Source: Alkalimonas sp. (lineage in GTDB: Bacteria; Pseudomonadota; Gammaproteobacteria; Enterobacterales; Alteromonadaceae). Taken from it: a DNA stretch of 64,000 bases. A program made the translations under genes and the position numbers. Shown here in pieces: positions 3,581-14,250 of this stretch. The DNA lies in contig NZ_JAFIFQ010000003.1 of assembly GCF_020831925.1 (NCBI RefSeq), positions 1 through 64,000 of the forward strand. Reading direction: 5' to 3'. The stretch's first letter is position 1; every line of letters begins with the position of its first letter. The notes beneath the pieces were generated by a model. The model was not told the origin of the DNA and did not search any database. It was given only the letters and a program-made list of their open reading frames with translations.

Positions 3581-4762
3581 TTAAACTTCAAAGGTGCCTT
3601 TTACCACGGCTTTGGCATTGGCCACCAACTGCCGACCTTTGGCCCAGACCTGGTCGATCTGCAAGTCTTCACGCTGAATGAGCACCAAATCGGCATCTTT
3701 GCCTGTGGCAAGACGGCCTTTTTGCTTCAGTCCAAGAATATCGGCTGGCGAGGCGGTAATGCTGCAAATCGCATCGGACAGTGGCACATCAAACTGCTGC
3801 ACTGCCTGACGGGCCGATTGATACAAGGTACGAACCTGGCCAACTTCCAGCCCGAGCATGTTGCCTTTTTTATCATAAATCGGCAGGCTGGCATTGCCAT
3901 CCGAGCTCATGGTCAGCTGCAGTACCGGAATGCCCTGGGCCAGACTAAGCGCCAATGCTTCGGCTGCAGCCACTTCACCATGTGCCAAATCGTAGGCAGT
4001 GGTGCTGGTGGTAAAATCCAGATAACCGCCTTGTTTGGCATAGCTAAGGCCGGCCGCAAACACATCCTGATTGCGGTTCATATGGGTTGGGTAGAACTGG
4101 GTTAATTCCAGTTCGCTGCCACTGACCGCATCCAGAATCGGTTGCAGTATGCTTTCGCCTGCGCCCATGTGGACACTGACAATGCCACTTTTACCCGACA
4201 AAATACCACCGACTCTGGCCGCTGCCGCGACTTTGCGAATTTCGCTGGTGGTCGGCTGGGAGGAGCGGTGATCGCTAATGGCAATCTCGCCAACACCGAT
4301 AAACTTATCGATCAGGATTAAGTCGTCGGTAATGTTGCCGGTCAGGGTGCGGCAGGGGATTTCATACGAGCCGGTATGGCACCAGGTGCTGATGCCTTCT
4401 TCTTCCAGCGCATGCGCCTTGGCCAGCAGATTGGTCAAAGTGCGGGTAGTGGCATCGGTACCAAGCACGCCTATGGCGGTGGTGACGCCGCCTAAGGTCG
4501 CATCGGTCAGTTGCATTTCCGGTGTGCGGCTGGCAAAACCAGCTTCACCACCGCCGCCGATAAAATGCACCAGCGAATCGACAAAACCAGGCACCAGGTA
4601 ATGACCGCGGGCATCGATTTCGGTCAGCGGCAGATTGCCGCTACCGCCAGCAAGCTCGTCGGCAATGGCCAGTATTTTACCGCCGCCAATCAGCACATCT
4701 TTTTGACCCAGCGGTTCAGGAGCCAGCACTTCAGCCCCTTTAAATAAAGTTAATCCGTTCAC
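3581..4762 (-). CDS. iadA: Isoaspartyl dipeptidase (IadA family), altered metal motif
   Basis: Amidohydrolase-superfamily enzyme, 393 residues (E. coli IadA 390), expected to cleave beta-aspartyl dipeptides in the cytoplasm. The GTG start is chosen because CGAGG lies just upstream and the carrier gene stops 10 bases before it; upstream extensions overlap that gene. Conserved pieces are LIGGGGEAG-like IGGGGEAG, SRTPE, the VGEIAISDHR segment (Glu where E. coli has the carboxylated Lys region), VHMGAGES, PTHMNRN and SSDGN. Odd point: the metal motif reads DSLVH where the family has D-x-H-x-H, so the first His is Leu64 while His66 is kept. It is last in an apparent TonB receptor-carrier-iadA unit facing a cyanophycinase, which suggests beta-Asp-Arg or beta-Asp-Lys dipeptides as substrate (inference). 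Confidence 0.9.
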   Translation of the reverse strand: MNGLTLFKGAEVLAPEPLGQKDVLIGGGKILAIADELAGGSGNLPLTEIDARGHYLVPGFVDSLVHFIGGGGEAGFASRTPEMQLTDATLGGVTTAIGVLGTDATTRTLTNLLAKAHALEEEGISTWCHTGSYEIPCRTLTGNITDDLILIDKFIGVGEIAISDHRSSQPTTSEIRKVAAAARVGGILSGKSGIVSVHMGAGESILQPILDAVSGSELELTQFYPTHMNRNQDVFAAGLSYAKQGGYLDFTTSTTAYDLAHGEVAAAEALALSLAQGIPVLQLTMSSDGNASLPIYDKKGNMLGLEVGQVRTLYQSARQAVQQFDVPLSDAICSITASPADILGLKQKGRLATGKDADLVLIQREDLQIDQVWAKGRQLVANAKAVVKGTFEV

Positions 4763-4772
4763 ATACACCTCG

Positions 4773-6263
4773 TTATTGGTAGCCGATCGCCACTGCCAGC
4801 AGCATCGCCAGGCTGGCCAGTAAGAACAGCCACAAATACAGTTTCCAGGCAAAACGGGCCCACAGGGTCCAGTCCACCCGTACCACCCCGAGACAGCCAA
4901 TCAGCGCTGCCGAGGTTGGGATAATGATATTGGTCAGGCCATCGCCCAGCTGAAATGCCAGCACGGCAATTTGCCGCGACAAACCGACTAAATCCGCCAA
5001 AGGCGCAATCAAAGGCATGGTCAGTGCAGCCTGGCCGGAGCCTGAGGCCACAAAGAAATTAAACACCGATTGCAGCACCAGCATAAACCAGGCCGATAGC
5101 CAGCCAGGTAAATCCCCCAGTGCCTGGCCGGAATAATACAGCAGAGTATTAAGTACGGAAGGCGTTTCCGGGTTATCGCCACCCAAAATCAGCACGATGC
5201 CCTTGGCCATGCCAACAATAAGCGCTGCTGGCAGCAACTCAGCCGCCCCTTGCTTAAAGGCATCGGCCGCGCCATTCACGGTAAGTCTGCCAGCTAACAC
5301 CCCCAGCACGGCCACGACTAAGCCTATGGTAAAGAACTGACTGGCAATTTCCGGAATGTAGTACTCTCGTGTGGTGACACCCCAAATAATCCAGCTAAGG
5401 CCGGCAAAGAATGCCAGCAAAATCACCGTATCAACGCCGGTGTAATGGCTGTGCTCAGACTGCTTGCCTTGTTGCTGGGCTTTTACCTGCAGATCGCTGG
5501 CGTAACTTGGCGAAAGCTCAGGATTGGCCTTGATGCGTTTGGCGTAGCGCATGGTGAACACCAGGCCAAAAAGCGTCAGTACCAGCCAAAGCCCATAGCG
5601 AAACTCAGCACCGGACATCAGTGGAATATCAGCAATACCCTGGGCAATGGCAATGCTAAAGGGGTTCATCCAGGAGGCCGCAAAGCCGATTTGGGTGGCG
5701 ACATAGGTCACCAGCACCGTAGTAATGGCATCGTAACCCAGCGCATACATCAGTGGCAGTAGCACAATGCAAAAGGCGATGGCCTCTTCCCCCATGCCAA
5801 AGATGGCCCCACCCAAAGAAAACAACAAAAACATGATGGGGATAAAGAGTGCCTCCATGTTTTTGGTTTTCTCTATCAGTGCCAGGATGCCATTGTGGAT
5901 GGCACCGGTGCGCATGATGATGCCAAAGGCACCGCCAGTGATAAGAATAAAGGCAATGACGCCAATGGCCGAGCCCCACTTAGAGCCTGAGACCATGCCT
6001 TCAAAGGCATAATTTAAAAAGCCAATACCACCGCCTTCGGCGAACAGTGGCACTCCATGCTGTTGCTCGGTATCCAGCGCAAAGCTGGCCGGATCGATGC
6101 GTTGCTGCAGTCCGATCTCACCGTTTTGTTCAACTTCTACCTGCTGCATGCCAAAGCTGCCTGCCGGGATCAGGTGGCTGGCAATAGCGGCCAGTACCAT
6201 CACGAAGAACAGGATCACAAAGGCATCAGGCATGTTGACCGGTTGTTTAACCGCGGTTTTCAT
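4773..6263 (-). CDS. YfcC/DcuC-type amino-acid or peptide carrier, inner membrane
   Basis: A 496-residue polytopic membrane protein of the YfcC family (related to C4-dicarboxylate carriers of the DcuC type), with about a dozen hydrophobic segments from residue 12 to the C-terminus. Family features visible are the SHLIPAGSFG segment after the first helix, the periplasmic stretch of residues 40-80, the FGMGEEAIAF segment and the repeated NP/NIIIPTSAAL half-site near the end. ATG is the first start and the next gene starts 10 bases after the stop, so carrier and iadA are co-transcribed. From the neighbourhood the likely cargo is an isoaspartyl dipeptide or the amino acids released from cyanophycin; the family alone does not fix the substrate. 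Confidence 0.85.
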   Translation of the reverse strand: MKTAVKQPVNMPDAFVILFFVMVLAAIASHLIPAGSFGMQQVEVEQNGEIGLQQRIDPASFALDTEQQHGVPLFAEGGGIGFLNYAFEGMVSGSKWGSAIGVIAFILITGGAFGIIMRTGAIHNGILALIEKTKNMEALFIPIMFLLFSLGGAIFGMGEEAIAFCIVLLPLMYALGYDAITTVLVTYVATQIGFAASWMNPFSIAIAQGIADIPLMSGAEFRYGLWLVLTLFGLVFTMRYAKRIKANPELSPSYASDLQVKAQQQGKQSEHSHYTGVDTVILLAFFAGLSWIIWGVTTREYYIPEIASQFFTIGLVVAVLGVLAGRLTVNGAADAFKQGAAELLPAALIVGMAKGIVLILGGDNPETPSVLNTLLYYSGQALGDLPGWLSAWFMLVLQSVFNFFVASGSGQAALTMPLIAPLADLVGLSRQIAVLAFQLGDGLTNIIIPTSAALIGCLGVVRVDWTLWARFAWKLYLWLFLLASLAMLLAVAIGYQ

Positions 6264-6297
6264 AACGATTTAGCCTGTAACGTACCATTGAAAAGAT

Positions 6298-6320
6298 AGG
6301 GGGGAGCCAGGCTCCCCCTT
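6298..6320 (-). terminator. Strong GC hairpin between receptor and carrier genes
   Basis: Minus-strand arms AAGGGGGAGCC and GGCTCCCCCCT flank a single T, followed by ATCTTTT. The tail is only weakly T-rich, so it may be a partial terminator or an RNA-stabilising hairpin that sets receptor expression above that of carrier and iadA. Confidence 0.6.
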
Positions 6321-6347
6321 AAGGTTGCTTACTAGAATACTTACCTG

Positions 6348-9281
6348 TTAAAAGAAGTAAGTAAAGGATAAGCGATAACTACGGCCCATGGCGTTATGAT
6401 TGATGGAATCAAAGCCGCGAGCACTGCCGAATACACGTGGAGGATCCCGATCCAGCAGATTATCGATGCTGAAGTTAATAGCTGCATTGTCAAAATCATA
6501 GCCGATGTTCGCCCGCAATGTGGTCCATGAGGCGACATTGCGACCACCATCTTCATTCAGCTCACCTAAGTCTTCCAGCTCCCAAATATTGCGACGACGC
6601 AAGCGGCTGATATCGTCTTCATAGGAAGAGGTATAGAGTGCGGTTAAGCCGAGGAACAAGTCATCGTTGCGCCAGGAGATGCGGGCACTACCAATGTTGC
6701 GTGGATAGCGGTAGGTGCCTACCAGCGACTCGATTTCATCCGAGCCTGCTTTATTGCGTTTAAACGACAGGTAGTTGGTCCAATCGATGTCCAGCCCTAA
6801 GCGACCACCGGCAAAGTCCAGCGTATGCTTGAAGCTGATATCCAGGCCTTTAACTTCTTGCTGACCTACGTTTTCCAACTGAATCACGTGATCCCGCAGC
6901 AACGGAAGTTCAGCAAATCGAGGGTTGAATGCAGCATCGTAGGCTTCCAGTATTTCGCTCAGATTAGCCCCTTGCTGATCAATACGAAGGCCAGCGGTAT
7001 CGGTCACCTGACAGACATCTGGATTGTAAGCAATACCAATTTGGCCTTGCGGTACCAAACCACAATGACGGATCGAGGCGTCGTTCGCGGTACGGGCCAG
7101 CATGGCGGTCATATCGGTATCCACCAGGCGTTTGTGTTCAAACTGCCAGTAGTCAACCGTAATAGTGGTATCACGGGTAGGGCTCCAGGCCAGGCCTAGG
7201 CTGATAGACTCAGACGTTTCAGCTTGCAAATCAGGGTTACCCAGTTCCAGCACATTAGGGCTGCTGGTAAAGCTCTGGCCATCACAGTAGAGATCGGATA
7301 CGGTCTGGTTAGCCGAACAGTCATAGGTAGCTGTTGTGGTGCGAAGCTGCACACCCGCCTGAGTCAGCGATGGCGCGCGGAAAGAGGTTGCCCAGGAGCC
7401 ACGCAGAATCAGTTCATCCACCGGACGCCAAGTCAGGCCTACTTTCGGGTTGAAAGTACCGCCAAAGTCGTTGTAATGATCGTAACGTCCAGCAGCCAAG
7501 AGCTCGACCCGCTCAGCCAGTGGTACATAGATTTCGGCAAAAGCGGCGGCCTGGTTGCGGCTGGCGGCAGATAAACTGGAACCGAAACCAAATACATCCA
7601 CCAGGTAGTCATTTTCCGGGCGGGCGCGGGCATTTAACGATGGGGTATCGGTAATTTCTTCGCGGCGAAGTTCCAGGCCAAGGGCGGCACCAACAAAGCC
7701 GTGTGGCATTTCAAACAACTCACCGCTAAAACGGGCATCCCAGCCATAGACGGTGCTGCGACCATCCCGGGTAGGCACTTCTTGTGCCAGAGCTAAAATA
7801 GCTTCGTTGGCTGGGTCATTTTGCAAGAAGGGGTTGTATACCCCAGCCAGGCCAGCACCTGAAGCACAGGTCAGATCAAAACCATCGTAATTGGCAATGC
7901 TACCATCCTGGCACAGCTCACCTGCAATACCTGCGTGGTATTTGTAGCGATTGTAAATGCCGGCCACCGCTTCCTGCTTGGACTTTGAACGTGATAACAA
8001 AATAGCACTTTCCCATTCCCAATGACCAATATCACCGCCCAAGGAAGACACAAAGCGAATGGCTTCACTTTCTACTTCAATGGTACGAGGATCATTAAAG
8101 CGGGCATCAAATTGGAAGCCCCACAGACGCTGGCCAGCCGGTGAAAAGAAAGGATCAATCCAGATTTCATCATTACCAAAATAGATGAAATTAGAGTCAC
8201 GGGTCACGCCGGGGAAGATATCCAAAGCATCTTCCTGTACCCAGGCACCTTCACTGTCATCCAATTGATCAATAGGGGCGGGGCTGGAGAACGCCGTGGA
8301 TTTGGTGCGGGTATAGAACAGATCCGTATTCCAACGCAGCCCATTGGCTAAATCGCGGTTAAACATAAAACCAACAGCAGCACTTTTGAACGGGCTTACC
8401 AGCACATCGTCTTCGTTGCTGTAGTAAGCACAGATTTCCTCACCAAACTCGGTGGTGACAAAGTCCGTTTTACAATCCGGGCTACCGATCTCATCACCGC
8501 TGCGTGCAGAGTTAAAATAAATATTTGGCGTACCTTTGGGTAAGTAAGAGTAGTTACTGACCAGTGCCGGCTCACGGGTAAAGCTGCGATCCTGAGCGGT
8601 CAGCATTTTACGGTCAAAGTAATCGGCGAATACGGTCAGGTTGCCACCAGCGACCTGGCGCCCCATCACAAAATTAATGTTGGCTCGGCCATCATTGCTC
8701 GAAGCAGTGCTGTTGCCGTAGCTCAGGTTTAGCTCGGCGCCATCGTAGTCGCTTTTTAAGATGTAGTTGATAACACCGGCTACTGCATCGGCACCGTAAA
8801 TGGCTGAGGCACCGGTCGCCAGTACTTCTACCCGCTCAATCGCAGCCAGCGGGATGCTATTGATATCGACAAAGTTCTGGGTGCCGGCGGCAAAGGAAGA
8901 TGCAGCAACCCGGCGGCCGTTGATTAGGGTTAAGGTTGAGGCTGGACCTAAACCACGCAAAGAGGCCGCTGCCTGCCCACCTGGCGTTGAGGTAGAAGTG
9001 GCACCACTTTCGGAGGTGGAGAAAGTTCCGCTACCACCACGAACCTGACCCAGGTCGCGCAGCAGTTCATAGATATCGCTGGCACCTGAGTTTTTGATGT
9101 CTTCGGAGGAAATAACCACCAGAGGCTGAGTGCCTTCCAGATCGACCCCGCGAATACGAGAACCGGTGACTTCAATTCGCTCAAGTTTGGCTTCTTCGGT
9201 CGCCGCTTGTTCATTCGCCAGTAGTGGACTCGAAACCAAAGCCGTTGCAATAGCTGTGGCTAAAACTGAGATTTTACGCAT
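6348..9281 (-). CDS. TonB-dependent outer-membrane receptor
   Basis: A 977-residue TonB-dependent receptor. The start is the ATG of MRKISVLATAIATALVSS, preceded by AGGTG; the longer reading begins inside the leader. A signal peptide ends near SPLLANE. The plug domain follows with IEVTGSRIRG, a hallmark of this receptor subgroup, then SLRGLG, TLTLINGRRV, IERVEVLATGASAIYGADAVAGVINYI split over the plug/barrel junction, and a long beta-barrel ending in the aromatic C-terminus SFTYFF. It faces the cyanophycinase across a shared 391-base promoter region and precedes the carrier and iadA, so the likely ligand is a peptide product of extracellular cyanophycin breakdown (inference). Subgroup ligands cannot be read from sequence alone. 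Confidence 0.93.
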   Translation of the reverse strand: MRKISVLATAIATALVSSPLLANEQAATEEAKLERIEVTGSRIRGVDLEGTQPLVVISSEDIKNSGASDIYELLRDLGQVRGGSGTFSTSESGATSTSTPGGQAAASLRGLGPASTLTLINGRRVAASSFAAGTQNFVDINSIPLAAIERVEVLATGASAIYGADAVAGVINYILKSDYDGAELNLSYGNSTASSNDGRANINFVMGRQVAGGNLTVFADYFDRKMLTAQDRSFTREPALVSNYSYLPKGTPNIYFNSARSGDEIGSPDCKTDFVTTEFGEEICAYYSNEDDVLVSPFKSAAVGFMFNRDLANGLRWNTDLFYTRTKSTAFSSPAPIDQLDDSEGAWVQEDALDIFPGVTRDSNFIYFGNDEIWIDPFFSPAGQRLWGFQFDARFNDPRTIEVESEAIRFVSSLGGDIGHWEWESAILLSRSKSKQEAVAGIYNRYKYHAGIAGELCQDGSIANYDGFDLTCASGAGLAGVYNPFLQNDPANEAILALAQEVPTRDGRSTVYGWDARFSGELFEMPHGFVGAALGLELRREEITDTPSLNARARPENDYLVDVFGFGSSLSAASRNQAAAFAEIYVPLAERVELLAAGRYDHYNDFGGTFNPKVGLTWRPVDELILRGSWATSFRAPSLTQAGVQLRTTTATYDCSANQTVSDLYCDGQSFTSSPNVLELGNPDLQAETSESISLGLAWSPTRDTTITVDYWQFEHKRLVDTDMTAMLARTANDASIRHCGLVPQGQIGIAYNPDVCQVTDTAGLRIDQQGANLSEILEAYDAAFNPRFAELPLLRDHVIQLENVGQQEVKGLDISFKHTLDFAGGRLGLDIDWTNYLSFKRNKAGSDEIESLVGTYRYPRNIGSARISWRNDDLFLGLTALYTSSYEDDISRLRRRNIWELEDLGELNEDGGRNVASWTTLRANIGYDFDNAAINFSIDNLLDRDPPRVFGSARGFDSINHNAMGRSYRLSFTYFF

Positions 9282-9672
9282 GTTGTTACACCTGTGCTGT
9301 ACGACGGGCAGCATGCCAACCGACCATTGCTCAGCAAAAGCAAAAGGCAGCAGGTCAAACCGCGGGCGTCGATGTAGTTTTCGTTAGTTCTGGTAAAAAT
9401 TAGTGGGCAGGAACAAATAACACCTGCCGGTCAGGGATGACCGGATGTGCTATTCGTTAAACCACTCAGAGAGGTAGTATGACGAATAGTGATATGAGCT
9501 AAGCTGTACTGCTTTTTTCAGCATATCGCTACCCTGGGACAAAAATGCGTCAAATTCTGCCTATAGATTTATCTCTAATTGGCAAGGAAGTCAATACAGG
9601 ATACTCTATGCAGCGATAAAAAATAATAATAAAAATCGTCTCAATCCATCCGATAAGCAATGAAGTGACCTT
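9282..9672. promoter_or_regulatory. Divergent promoter region, TonB receptor / cyanophycinase
   Basis: No credible gene. The region holds a perfect inverted repeat at 9427-9444, CCGGTCA-GGGA-TGACCGG, suitable as an operator or hairpin, and a very AT-rich stretch next to the cyanophycinase start. The shared location suggests co-regulation of the two divergent units. I could not assign -35/-10 pairs with confidence. Confidence 0.5.
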
Positions 9673-11208
9673 ATGAATCCAATGAATTATATCAAACGAA
9701 CTATCGCATTTTTTCCGCTAATCGCTGCTTTTTCGCTGCACTCTAACGAAGTTATCCAAAGTGGCCACCAGATGATGTTGGTAGGTGGCGGGGTCAGTAT
9801 TTGCACGTCTGAAGCACCAGGGAGTTGTTTACCCGATACGCGGTTTGAACATGATGACAAGCCGTCTTCTGGCAAGTTTCAGGTAGAGCAAGTGGCACTT
9901 TTGCAGAGTAAGGATCCTTTTTCACGTGATTTGATACTGGATTTTGTGCGCCAGGCAGCACAGTTATCTGGCAAAGAGCAACCAGAGGTGTTGGTGGTTA
10001 CCGCTTCATCCCGCAACCCTTTTGCCGCGGTTGATTTTTACCTGGAGCTATTTACCCAGGCGGGGGCTAAGGTGCGCTGGTTGCCCATCCACGCAGCCTA
10101 TCAGCAAGCGCAACGGCTTGGGGCTGAGTCTGGCTGTGCTCAGTTAGATACTTTGTTCGAGCAATACCATGGCCTGACCGAGCCTGGGAAAGAGCACCCG
10201 AATTTAATGGTTTATCAACAGCAGTTTTGTCAGTTTGGTTCTGAGCACAGTGTTGCTTTGATTGACGCTGCCGATGCAATTTTTTTTAATGGTGGCGATC
10301 AGTCGATGACCCTGCAGGCGCTTCGAGGCCTTGACGGAGCTGCAACGCCAGAGCTAACAGCCATAGAGCGGGGGTTAAAAGCAGGTACTTTATTAGTGGG
10401 TGGCACCAGTGCTGGTACTGCTGTCATGTCCGGTAGTGAGCCTGCAGCTGTTCCGATGATTACCAATGGCGATTCACGCTATGCGCTCGCTTTTGGGGCC
10501 CATGCGGTAGAACCACCTGAGCGTGACTGTGCCGAACATGGCACTTGCCCGGCTGGTTTGCATGAGAGCTCCTTAACTTACAAGGCAGAAGGTGGTGCTG
10601 CTCTTTTTCCATGGGGTATTTTGGATACGCACTTTTCTGAACGTGGGCGCGAGGGGCGGTTACTTGAGCTGGCTCTGGCGACCGACACCCGTTTTGGTTT
10701 TGGTGTCGATGAAGCGACCGCTCTGTGGGTTTATGTACCTAAAGCAGGCTCAGATGACGTGTGGTTTGAAGTGCAAGGACGAGGAGGTGTGTTTATCCTT
10801 GATCTGTCGACTGCTCAACAGGACCAAAAAGCGGATGGAAAGCGAGTTCGTCAGGTCGTGACGCACTATTTAACGCATGGCGACAAGGCCAGGCTGCATC
10901 AAGGCGAGCTTAGCATTCAGTTTGCTGACTGGAAGCATGGGGTTGCAGACGATGCTGCAAAGCCGCAACAACTGAATAAGATCTTGCAGCATGATCATTT
11001 TCAGCAGTTAGCTCATCATTTGTGCGTCAGCAATCAGAAGACTGCCAGCGGACAAGACCAGCTGGCAGCCACCAGATTCTTATTGCAATTAAGTCGCAAT
11101 GACCAGAGCAAAAGCAAGCCAGGCGTAATAGTAAAAGATGACCAAGCGTTTCGTTTTTGCTCGTATCAGCATATGCTGCTAGAGCTTAGCGTAGCAGCGA
11201 ACCCTTAG
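9673..11208 (+). CDS. Exported cyanophycinase-like peptidase, family S51
   Basis: A 511-residue serine peptidase of family S51. An N-terminal hydrophobic segment (IAFFPLIAAFSLHS) looks like a signal peptide, so the enzyme is probably periplasmic or extracellular, like the secreted CphE type rather than the shorter cytoplasmic CphB type of about 270 residues. The nucleophile elbow is GGTSAGTAVMSG with Ser246; FFNGGDQSM, which precedes it by about 40 residues, is the other S51 signature, and DTHFSERGREGRL follows as in cyanophycinases. The C-terminal third is extra. Cyanophycinases cut the Asp-Arg polymer to beta-Asp-Arg dipeptides, which fits the neighbouring receptor, carrier and isoaspartyl dipeptidase. 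Another ATG nine bases later is an alternative start. Confidence 0.85.
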   Translation: MNPMNYIKRTIAFFPLIAAFSLHSNEVIQSGHQMMLVGGGVSICTSEAPGSCLPDTRFEHDDKPSSGKFQVEQVALLQSKDPFSRDLILDFVRQAAQLSGKEQPEVLVVTASSRNPFAAVDFYLELFTQAGAKVRWLPIHAAYQQAQRLGAESGCAQLDTLFEQYHGLTEPGKEHPNLMVYQQQFCQFGSEHSVALIDAADAIFFNGGDQSMTLQALRGLDGAATPELTAIERGLKAGTLLVGGTSAGTAVMSGSEPAAVPMITNGDSRYALAFGAHAVEPPERDCAEHGTCPAGLHESSLTYKAEGGAALFPWGILDTHFSERGREGRLLELALATDTRFGFGVDEATALWVYVPKAGSDDVWFEVQGRGGVFILDLSTAQQDQKADGKRVRQVVTHYLTHGDKARLHQGELSIQFADWKHGVADDAAKPQQLNKILQHDHFQQLAHHLCVSNQKTASGQDQLAATRFLLQLSRNDQSKSKPGVIVKDDQAFRFCSYQHMLLELSVAANP

Positions 11209-11244
11209 CAGGCAGAGTAGAATTGAGCAGATAAAGAGGCATTG

Positions 11245-13539
11245 ATGACGGTTCAACCTGTACATCCGATGGTAAAAGGTCTGGCAGAACGATTACGGCA
11301 GTGGGGTTGGCTCAAGCTGATGGCGCTGGTGCTGTTGTTCGTTGTTATGGCCGCGACTTTGCTGGCACTCGGTGTATCGGTACTGCTTGGTGCTGGTATC
11401 CATTGGGATACGGTTTTAACTGTCTTGCTCCTCACCTGCCTGATTGGTCCCTTGGTATTGGCGCTGGTGTTTTATCTGATTGAACAACTGGATGCCACTT
11501 TGTTGTATCTGGAAGATTCCAGCCGCCAGGAAAAAGTACTGAATCAGCACCTGCAGGAAAATATCCGCCAGCTGAACTTTGAAATCGAAGAGCGTAAAAA
11601 AGCTTTTCAGGCCAAGCGTAGAGCCATTGATGAGTTGCGCAAAGAAATTCTTGAGCGTAAAAAAGCTCAGCAGGAGCTGGAAGAGCAGACCTTGCTGATC
11701 CGCTCCATCGTTGATAGCTCGCCCGATTTATTCTATTACCGGGATGAAACGGGCCGCTTTGCCAGTTGCAATAAAATGTTTGAAGTTACCATGGGCAAAC
11801 CGGCCGCTGAGCTGCTTGGACGCCATCCGGCAGATATCTTCAAAGATGATACGGTGCCTTCTGCGATTTTAAGTGACCACGAAGTAACGACCCAACAATC
11901 CGAGCTGATCCTGGATGTGGAATTTACCGATAGCAAAGGACAGAGTCTTTGGTTTGAAATGCGTAAGGTGCCGTTTTTTGATAAGCAAGGGCGCTCCATT
12001 GGCTTGCTGGGTTTTGGCCGGGATATCACCTCACGTAAGCTGGCCGAGCAAGCGTTGGAGAAGGCCTATCAGGACAAAGGCAAGTTTATTGCAACGTTAA
12101 GCCATGAGCTGCGCACTCCGCTGAATGGCATTGTTGGTTTAACCAGACGCCTGCTGGACAGCGAACTGGCAGAATCACAACGCAGCTGGAGTCAGACTAT
12201 CTTTACCAGTGCCGAAACTCTTGGAAATATTTTCAATGATATTATTGATTTAGATAAAATTGACCGCCAGGATCTCGATATTGTTTATCAGAACATCGAA
12301 ATCAATGGCTTTGTCACCGATATCAAAAACTTTGCCGAACTGATTTGCCAGCAAAAAGAGCTGGATTTTGAGTTGGTTTTGCATGCTCCAGCTGACTGCT
12401 ATTTGCAGCTGGATCCAACCCGGGTACGTCAGGTGCTTTGGAATCTGCTGAATAATGCCGTGAAATTTACCGCCAAGGGCCGTATCAGTTTGTATTGTGA
12501 GCTACTGCAACACGACAACACCCAATTGTTGTTAAAAGTGATCGATACCGGCATTGGCATCAGTCAGCATGAACAAAAGCGTATCTTTGATATGTATTAC
12601 AAGTCCAACGATGGCCGTCGTTTGAGTGTGGTTGGTTCGGGGATCGGTTTATCGGTTTCAAAAGCCTTGGTGGAGGCGATGGATGGTTCCCTGACGTTAG
12701 AAAGTTCGGTGGGTGCGGGCAGTTGTTTTGAAATCTTATTGCCGACCCGCTTGGTTAGTCGGCCCACACAGCAGGCGATTGATTGTCCGGAGCTCACTAT
12801 CTTGTTGGTTGAAGATGTACCTCTCAATGCAGACATCGCTATTAGTTTGTTGGAGCAGCGTGGTCATACTGTGATTCATGCTGAAACCGGAGAAGATGCG
12901 CTGGCATTACTGGAAACGGAGGATGATCTGGATTTGGTGCTGCTCGATATGCAGTTACCGGATATGACCGGTGATCAAATTGCCAGGACGATGCGCCAGG
13001 AGATGCACCTGAAGCATTTGCCTATCGTTGTACTCAGTGCCAATGTGCGCAAAGCGGAAGAGCAACTGGCTGGGATCCGGATTGATGGCGCTTTGGCAAA
13101 GCCACTAAATACCAACAATCTGGATCAATTACTGGCGCAGTTGTTTTCGCCCAGCGCCTTAAAGACAGCCACCACTCAACCTACGGTAGAGTCGGATTAT
13201 ATGCTGGATCTGGCAACCCTGGATGATTATATGCAATCGCTGGGCAAAGAAACTATGCTGCGCAGCGCTAAGTTGTTTGCACAGTTGTTGCCAGGTTACA
13301 TTAACAAGATGCTGGAAGAAGCCGTGCATCAACGGTTGAATGCTTTCAAGGATGCAGCGCACACCCTGAAAGGGGCCGCATCATCGGTTGGTTTGCATTG
13401 GGTGCAGAAGCAGGCTAAAAAATACGAGGCGCTGTCGGAGCCCAATTGGCAACAGCTGGAACGACAGTTGGTAGACTTCCATTTAACAGCAGAGCGGCAC
13501 TTGGCCGCTCTGTATGACTATTTGGAAAAGGATAGCTGA
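11245..13539 (+). CDS. arcB: ArcB-type hybrid sensor histidine kinase
   Basis: Membrane sensor kinase of the redox-responsive Arc system, 764 residues (E. coli ArcB 778). Two N-terminal membrane helices (about residues 23-50 and 55-80), a coiled linker, a PAS domain (about 150-265), HisKA with His287 in TLSHELRTPLNG, HATPase with DTGIGIS and GSGIGLSVSK, a receiver with Asp568 in LLDMQLPD, and an Hpt domain with His706 in AAHTLKGAA. The order matches ArcB exactly. ATG is preferred over a TTG three bases upstream because AGAGGC is correctly spaced. Its partner arcA is directly downstream on the other strand with no base between the stop codons; in E. coli the two genes are unlinked. Confidence 0.95.
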   Translation: MTVQPVHPMVKGLAERLRQWGWLKLMALVLLFVVMAATLLALGVSVLLGAGIHWDTVLTVLLLTCLIGPLVLALVFYLIEQLDATLLYLEDSSRQEKVLNQHLQENIRQLNFEIEERKKAFQAKRRAIDELRKEILERKKAQQELEEQTLLIRSIVDSSPDLFYYRDETGRFASCNKMFEVTMGKPAAELLGRHPADIFKDDTVPSAILSDHEVTTQQSELILDVEFTDSKGQSLWFEMRKVPFFDKQGRSIGLLGFGRDITSRKLAEQALEKAYQDKGKFIATLSHELRTPLNGIVGLTRRLLDSELAESQRSWSQTIFTSAETLGNIFNDIIDLDKIDRQDLDIVYQNIEINGFVTDIKNFAELICQQKELDFELVLHAPADCYLQLDPTRVRQVLWNLLNNAVKFTAKGRISLYCELLQHDNTQLLLKVIDTGIGISQHEQKRIFDMYYKSNDGRRLSVVGSGIGLSVSKALVEAMDGSLTLESSVGAGSCFEILLPTRLVSRPTQQAIDCPELTILLVEDVPLNADIAISLLEQRGHTVIHAETGEDALALLETEDDLDLVLLDMQLPDMTGDQIARTMRQEMHLKHLPIVVLSANVRKAEEQLAGIRIDGALAKPLNTNNLDQLLAQLFSPSALKTATTQPTVESDYMLDLATLDDYMQSLGKETMLRSAKLFAQLLPGYINKMLEEAVHQRLNAFKDAAHTLKGAASSVGLHWVQKQAKKYEALSEPNWQQLERQLVDFHLTAERHLAALYDYLEKDS

Positions 13540-14250
13540 TTAATCTTTATCGATATTACCGACAAAGCGGTAACCTTCACCGTGAATGGTGCTGATCAGC
13601 TCTGGCGTATCCATGTCGGTCTCAAAATGCTTACGGATACGACGAATGGTTACATCTACGGTCCGATCATTCGGACGCAGTTCACGGCCTGTCATATGGC
13701 GGATCAATTGCTCACGGGTAAAGATTTTTCCTGGGGTATCCAGCATCAGACGCAAGGCGCGGTATTCGCCTTTTGGCAAGCGGCGTGACTCACCTTTTGG
13801 CGACGTCAGGTTGCGGCTATTCTCATCCAGCGTCCAGCCATTGAAGGTCACTACGCTTTTGTGCTCTTCCACCACAGGTTGTGCTACCGTGCGGCTTAAC
13901 AGGTTGCGAGCGCGGATGGTTAATTCACGTGGGTTGAATGGCTTGGTCAGGTAATCATCGGCACCAATTTCCAGCCCCAGAATACGATCGACTTCGCTAT
14001 CGCGACCAGTCAGGAAAATCAGGCCAATTTTTTCTTTTTGACGCAATTCACGCGCCAGAATTAAGCCGTTTTTACCAGGCAGATTGATGTCCATCACGAT
14101 TAGATTGACTTTGCTTTCAGCCAGGCGCTGATTCATTTCTTCACCATTGATGGCTTCAATCACATCGTAGCCTTCACCTTGAAACAGGCTGACCAGATTG
14201 GTGCGAGTAACTTCTTCATCTTCAACAATTAGAACGACAGGGGTCTGCAT
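13540..14250 (-). CDS. arcA: ArcA response regulator
   Basis: OmpR-family DNA-binding regulator of the Arc two-component system, 236 residues. Receiver with phospho-acceptor Asp54 in [11 protein letters not shown] and the conserved TKPFNPREL after it; C-terminal winged helix with [15 protein letters not shown] and IRRIRKHFE, nearly identical to E. coli ArcA. Convergent with arcB: the TAA of arcA begins at the base after the arcB TGA, so antisense read-through between the pair is possible. The 195-base upstream region before the next kinase is AT-rich and holds its promoter. Confidence 0.97.

Follow-up and report, generated by a model that had tools for sequence, protein, structure and literature searches.

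A four-gene cluster at positions 3581-11208 of a 64,000-nucleotide stretch of Alkalimonas sp. DNA (hereafter the window; contig C80 of a host genome of 3.6 Mb, 95% complete) is rather likely to be a scavenging system for a β-aspartyl polymer, most probably the cyanophycin of other microbes, with a stall-type leader controlling a regulon of three units. There is good support for the predicted scavenging of cyanophycin, or of related isoaspartyl peptides, from outside the cell, because the genes show conserved linkage, the S51 peptidase has a cyanophycinase-type active site and no cyanophycin synthetase was found above cut-off; on the same grounds the outside-in uptake pathway proposed in a preliminary description of this DNA holds up. 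The features concerned are as follows.

3581-4768, minus strand: iadA-like isoaspartyl dipeptidase, 395 amino acids from GTG 4768 (TIGR01975, 493 bits; cut-off 331)
4773-6263, minus strand: YfcC/DcuC-type inner-membrane carrier (NF008611, 713 bits, cut-off 500; PF03606)
6348-9314, minus strand: TonB-dependent receptor, TBDR1 (PF00593, barrel; PF07715, plug)
9395-9442, minus strand: two hairpins directly past the leader stop, with a U run after the second (9428-9406); candidate terminator or attenuator
9450-9524, minus strand: 24-codon leader open reading frame (ORF), MLKKAVQLSSYHYSSYYLSEWFNE-TAG, 135 nt upstream of the receptor ORF
9673-11208, plus strand: S51 cyanophycinase-like peptidase, predicted exported, 511 amino acids (S246, H320, E347; Q210, D318, T319, R324, R326, R329)

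Gene order and linkage across the family

An exported S51 peptidase facing a TonB receptor-carrier-isoaspartyl dipeptidase unit, as the preliminary description had it, was confirmed by gene position (all four genes lie where it placed them), profile matches and linkage: S51 (9673-11208, plus strand) diverges from a TBDR1-YfcC-IadA operon (9314-3581, minus strand). The leader ORF (9524-9450, minus strand) was absent from that account. The iadA ORF was listed from 4900, but its likelier start is GTG 4768 (or 4762), directly past the yfcC stop, while the true start of TBDR1 may be its second Met at ~9281 (by eye).

Linkage was followed in 147 genomes of the host's bacterial family, searched with S51, IadA and the receptor. 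Matches were found in 70 genomes for S51 (E ≤ 1e-3), in 60 for IadA (E ≤ 1e-40) and in 43, from 23 of the 52 sampled genera, for the receptor (E ≤ 1e-100). Among the fetched receptor loci (with ~1 kb of flank read) of these 43 genomes, S51 was also present in 41, YfcC in 42 and IadA in 38, and all four genes shared one locus in 37. Departures from the common layout were: i) a receptor ~20 kb away from the remaining genes (G033); ii) a locus broken by contig ends, with gltB-iadA-yfcC on another contig (G136); iii) an S51 not at the receptor locus (G111); and iv) a rearranged yet clustered order, S51-YfcC-IadA in one direction (L038 and L082). A unit of S51 and IadA without YfcC was seen in L081. 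The operons of L038, L081 and L082 follow another large gene, which encodes outer-membrane-barrel or carboxypeptidase-regulatory domains, and none of the three had a match to the leader pattern (LSEWF) described below.

The S51 peptidase and a divergent IadA

The three PDB matches of the window S51 were all cyanophycinases, and its N-terminus resembles a signal peptide (by eye). Fourteen rows (duplicates and one partial ORF) were dropped before alignment; in the alignment the triad Ser246/His320/Glu347 and the pocket residues Gln210, Asp318, Thr319, Arg324, Arg326 and Arg329 were kept. In CphB, Gln101, Asp172, Gln173, Arg178, Arg180 and Arg183 are critical, and CphE, an extracellular enzyme that has been assayed, carries these residues except for Thr in place of Gln173 (PMC3235067; PMC papers are cited throughout for excerpts of their text). 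Thus the window S51 has the CphE residue set, since Thr319 and the remaining pocket residues match the CphE pattern. Features shared with CphE of Pseudomonas alcaligenes are the signal peptide (in the window S51, a signal-like N-terminus), the Ser-His-Glu triad, the Gln/Asp/Arg/Arg/Arg residues and Thr before His; the two differ in that the CphE gene spans 1260 bp (PMC3235067), whereas the window S51 (511 amino acids) is extended at the C-terminus, has conserved Cys residues and falls below the TIGR02069 cut-off.

The ten inspected positions (DQSDTHRRRE) were identical in 48 of the 49 operon-linked S51 proteins, the exception (L084) being a truncated ORF. Among the 22 clade members without the operon (L086, of CphE type, excluded) the triad was kept in seven and lost in 15. 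A Fisher test of this contrast, in which L086 entered as unlinked, yields no clean probability, since the copies are related. With L084 scored as dead, the dead-triad label on the S51 tree requires no fewer than 4 changes along starred branches, or 7 by parsimony; G017, which has a dead triad and no operon, neighbours the operon-linked G063.

The window S51 shares 92% identity with its Alkalimonas amylolytica counterpart; together with two near relatives (508-511 amino acids) it does not have ~110 residues near the N-terminus (~9856), which most other members (~550-665 amino acids) carry. Eight Cys are invariant across seven aligned S51 proteins, which would fit disulphides and export. An AlphaFold2 model from a two-row alignment (mean predicted local distance difference test score 31.9) was not used. 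The S51 proteins with dead triads are L040, L041, L068, L069, L073-L075, L077, L088, L124-L126 and L129-L131; several adjoin gltB, some lie between gltB and arcB, and they are possible pseudoenzymes with another role.

The neighbouring gltB had been proposed to channel nitrogen into glutamate, a role that was not supported: because it adjoins the receptor operon in only 6 of the 43 loci and also flanks S51 copies that have dead active sites and no operon, it marks a position rather than a function, and its presence looks incidental. The ArcB-like hybrid kinase begins 34 bp downstream of S51 (window 11242-14250), an interval for which a winged-helix response regulator (236 amino acids, opposite strand) was also recorded. 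That S51 belongs to this redox sensor as a sensory or structural partner is very unlikely: L040, L041 and L088 do have the order gltB-S51-ArcB, with a dead S51 active site and no operon, but most loci have S51 with the operon and an intact active site, and the kinase was found in only eight of the 43 fetched receptor loci. In E. coli, too, gltB and arcB are neighbours, and we take the adjacency of both genes as chromosome position.

Elsewhere in the host genome, the other S51 proteins are a CphE-like one above cut-off (C118), two in tandem (C101) and a short weak match (C129). For the synthetase CphA1 (TIGR02068), no match above cut-off was found in this 95% complete genome, the best of 15 weaker matches reaching 92 of 850 bits.

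The dipeptidase of the locus departs from known IadA proteins at its metal site. The first His of the HxH motif (E. coli His68) is replaced by Leu in all 47 locus IadAs (truncated L132 left out), whereas all 16 storage-cluster IadAs (adjoining cphA1) have His there. So do the IadAs that stand alone in G011 and G060, those of six genomes from three further families, and the inspected solved structures. Structures 1onw, 8dqn, 5xgw and 7cdh (E. coli, Leucothrix, Colwellia and Fervidobacterium) belong to the same family and share the other active-site residues, yet all have HxH in place of LxH. Thus the HxH motif of the two-zinc site is absent from the locus IadA, though its TIGR01975 score passes. 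The window IadA also has Glu where the carbamylated Lys is expected, as in the Colwellia enzyme (PMC5517026). At a second position the locus proteins (L68, S289) differ from those of cyanophycin clusters (H68, C289), and G004, G075 and G106 carry both clusters and both subtypes. On the tree the locus IadAs, with truncated L132, fall on one side of a branch (local support 0.53). Since the remaining ligands and substrate residues are kept, we expect the enzyme to be active, its α-metal site being altered. The LxH IadA looks new as a separate subtype: among the matches listed, no report of it was found in the open-access literature searched.

These residues bear on the identity of the substrate. 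It is conceivable, though we hold it doubtful, that the system takes up isoaspartyl peptides of aged protein or another β-Asp polymer and that the leader senses the corresponding product. The L68/S289 subtype, distinct from the cyanophycin-cluster subtype even in the three genomes that have both, points that way, as does the position of the cyanophycinase-type protein of C118 outside the leader regulon. On the other hand, S51 keeps the cyanophycinase-critical residues in their CphE form, and where the locus has no IadA of its own a histidine-type IadA occurs elsewhere, suggesting interchangeable dipeptides; cyanophycin remains the substrate that we favour.

A 24-codon leader and its candidate regulon

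The intergenic regions of up to 1000 bp that separate S51 from a divergent receptor or carrier (45, near relatives included; 37 distinct) share a short element. By an unbiased gapped-word count, one word occurred in 26 of the 37 distinct regions, compared with at most 5 in six shuffled sets. This word closes an ORF that runs on the receptor strand, in most copies M(L/I/Y/F)KKA..L..Y.Y..(F/Y)YLSEWF(D/N)E-stop. All 45 regions contain the ORF, at a distance of 26-377 nt (mostly ~100-160) upstream of the receptor or carrier ORF. In 44 of the 45 a start codon (43 ATG, 1 GTG) gives a reading frame of exactly 24 codons ahead of the stop; the 45th, L043, has an ATG at that place, its slice being too short for the length count. 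In codons 17-24 of 32 distinct copies, differences at codon positions 1, 2 and 3 numbered 475, 60 and 1590, while in the 24 nt upstream of the same copies they were even (2835, 2920 and 2800), which argues that the amino acids are under selection; we infer that the ORF is translated. Searches of Pfam and NCBIfam with three leader peptides gave no match, and Rfam gave for 9150-9800 a single sub-threshold match, taken as chance.

When the 147 family genomes were searched with a pattern for the last seven codons plus stop, 46 of them contained a total of 78 matches; the reversed pattern, used as control, matched once. In a class-wide sample of 369 genomes the pattern occurred in three (three times in the host, once in G024 and once, with a different peptide, in a distant genome; control, one), so that outside the family it is at chance level. 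The next gene in 74 distinct leader/gene pairs was TBDR1 (40), YfcC (5), an S51 with a PPC domain (S51-PPC, 13), a second TonB-dependent receptor (TBDR2, 12; one of these, in G072, is the locus receptor by place) or none called (4: three loci ending early and the distant chance match outside the family). Seven further matches preceded S51-PPC (six) or flagellin (one). The last, FSEWFDN-TAG ~145 nt before the flagellin gene (G145, C444:25246-25269, L250, reverse strand), was taken as chance, so that 77 of the 78 family matches fit pathway units.

All three leader classes are present in the host genome, on C80, C101 and C54. Because the same C-terminus precedes the second receptor and the second exported S51 (PPC) as well, the three units would form one regulon. 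On C101 (L016 8455-11245) one of the tandem S51 genes encodes a PPC domain and has an LSEWF leader to itself (11120-11245, minus strand), with TonB-like and Sel1-repeat proteins in the neighbourhood (by eye). On C54 (L202 1240-4154) the second receptor, behind a leader ending SPYYLSEWFNN-TAG, adjoins a TetR-type regulator and a radical-SAM gene resembling rimO.

All stops of the 77 leaders are read by release factor 1 (RF1): TAG in 57, TAA in 20 and TGA in none, against a background, counted for labelled neighbouring genes only, of 45 TAG, 147 TAA and 34 TGA. Terminator-like hairpins followed the leader in 13 of 41 regions versus 12 of 164 shuffles. In the window, the hairpins at 9395-9442 have -16.5 kcal/mol (z -3.3; 1 of 200 shuffles equally good), and the scan found a separate terminator-like site at 9363-9347.

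We read the leader as a TnaC-like attenuation leader, which probably switches the pathway genes on. Classical attenuation, in which starvation for Tyr or Trp would stall the ribosome within the leader and open the operon, is unlikely: locus leaders never vary at Y17 and hardly at Y11 and Y13, and hairpins do lie downstream, but conservation is highest at the C-terminus and stop rather than in runs of Tyr, the pathway does not yield Tyr, and S51-PPC leaders, which mostly end D(Y/F)HLSEWFDE, have few Tyr. An action of the 24-residue product in trans, as a small membrane protein, signal or precursor of a modified peptide, seems to us improbable too. It would agree with the strong amino-acid selection and with a length fixed at 24 in 44 of 45 locus leaders. 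However, the N-terminus and length vary between leader classes, the ORF is on the same strand directly upstream of a pathway gene, and no obvious maturation enzyme adjoins the leader, though no search was aimed at one. Moreover, where receptor and carrier lie apart (G033, G075 and G106) each has its own leader copy, which argues for action in cis. For the TnaC-like reading, opinion stands evenly balanced in our estimate on its strongest form: that YLSEWF(D/N)(E/N)-stop defines a new family of metabolite-sensing arrest peptides for isoaspartyl or cyanophycin catabolism in the host's bacterial family, stalling at RF1 stops and coordinating, across three unlinked units, two TonB receptors, one or more exported S51 peptidases, the carrier and an LxH IadA with a remodelled zinc site.

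The likeness to TnaC lies in the 24 codons, the place upstream of a catabolic operon and a Trp (critical in TnaC), and no sequence homology is claimed; TnaC acts at its stop codon with a Rho site after it, as the leader described here may, and the TnaC stop is UGA (read by RF2) whereas here it is UAG or UAA (PMC8429421). Free Trp stalls the ribosome on TnaC (PMC8429421). The leader has apparently not been described before: among the matches listed, it did not appear in the open-access literature searched (leader peptide and TonB; stalling in Alteromonadales-type taxa), nor in the excerpt of PMC2659441, and "LSEWF" occurred in the literature searched only in two scanned texts, of 1857 and 1897.

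Proposed pathway and its standing

The pathway that we propose has four steps: i) TBDR1 would move chains or fragments across the outer membrane; ii) the exported S51, judging from its active site, would free β-Asp dipeptides; iii) YfcC would carry these to the cytoplasm; and iv) the LxH-type IadA, judging from its family, would split them into Asp and Arg or another amino acid. The preliminary description had the polymer cut outside and dipeptides imported; S51 and receptor stand as parts of the pathway, in a changed order. Because dipeptides are small enough for porins, we think that the receptor imports longer chains and that S51 cuts in the periplasm. As to control, the 24-codon leader would be translated ahead of TBDR1, an inducer (a pathway product) would stall the nascent YLSEWF(D/N)E at UAG or UAA, and the stalled ribosome would prevent termination of transcription by Rho or at a terminator downstream.

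Several findings weigh against this reading: i) the window S51 scores 94 bits with the cyanophycinase equivalog TIGR02069 (cut-off 126.6), for which reason we call it cyanophycinase-like and not a filed member, and 23.3 bits with Pfam S51 (cut-off 23.9); ii) an S51 phylogeny outside the cyanophycinases, named beforehand as evidence against the pathway, was in part observed, as the S51 proteins form a clade separate from CphB and CphE (Shimodaira-Hasegawa-like approximate likelihood ratio test 99, unrooted tree), with the cyanophycinase pocket kept; iii) intact S51 occurs without the operon in 7 of the 22 unlinked clade members; iv) C118, the host's sole S51 above the cyanophycinase cut-off, has neither the leader nor an adjoining IadA; v) the metal site of the locus IadA is unlike that of cyanophycin-storage IadA, which could mean a different substrate; vi) in G011, G060 and G093 the receptor, carrier and S51 stand without an IadA adjoining the carrier, a histidine-type IadA being present elsewhere in each genome; vii) the hairpin test found no strong intrinsic terminator in 28 of 41 loci; viii) Shine-Dalgarno-like motifs were not enriched before the leader (7 of 44 versus 13% of shuffled sequences), and a scan of 9250-9750 found no sigma-70-like promoter; and ix) ARG boxes, a candidate control element that we rejected, showed a weak excess between S51 and receptor (at least 9 of 10 positions in 5 of 45 regions versus 8 of 225 single-base shuffles), the best such site in the window matching 7 of 10.

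Parts of the system are already known: loci for cyanophycin utilization have been published, and so has a cyanophycinase with a TonB receptor next to it. In 45 of 52 genomes without CphA1, genes for a cyanophycinase, IadA and a transporter are clustered (PMC10206079). The "cyanophycin utilization locus" of Ben Hania et al. (strain L21-Spi-D4, as cited in PMC10206079) likewise joins a cyanophycinase-type enzyme, IadA and a transporter without CphA1 (in our host, none above cut-off), while the TonB receptor, YfcC, divergent S51, LxH IadA and leader are features of the Alkalimonas locus that do not appear in the excerpt of that paper. In Citromicrobium a TonB transporter stands beside a cyanophycinase gene and cyanophycin uptake was proposed from this proximity (PMC3400609), as here; neither an IadA/YfcC operon nor a leader appears in the excerpt of that paper. 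Cyanophycinases have also been noted, in part of the literature consulted, in Pseudoalteromonas tunicata and Thalassotalea. What looks new is the LxH IadA subtype and the 24-codon leader ORF.

If the proposed reading is true, a broad bacterial group (that with the receptor) would have a dedicated route to nitrogen locked in β-aspartyl linkages, together with a natural sensor for it, and the leader would represent a rare kind of peptide, an inducible arrest peptide working at RF1-read stops. The LxH IadA raises the question of how such an amidohydrolase works without one α-metal ligand.

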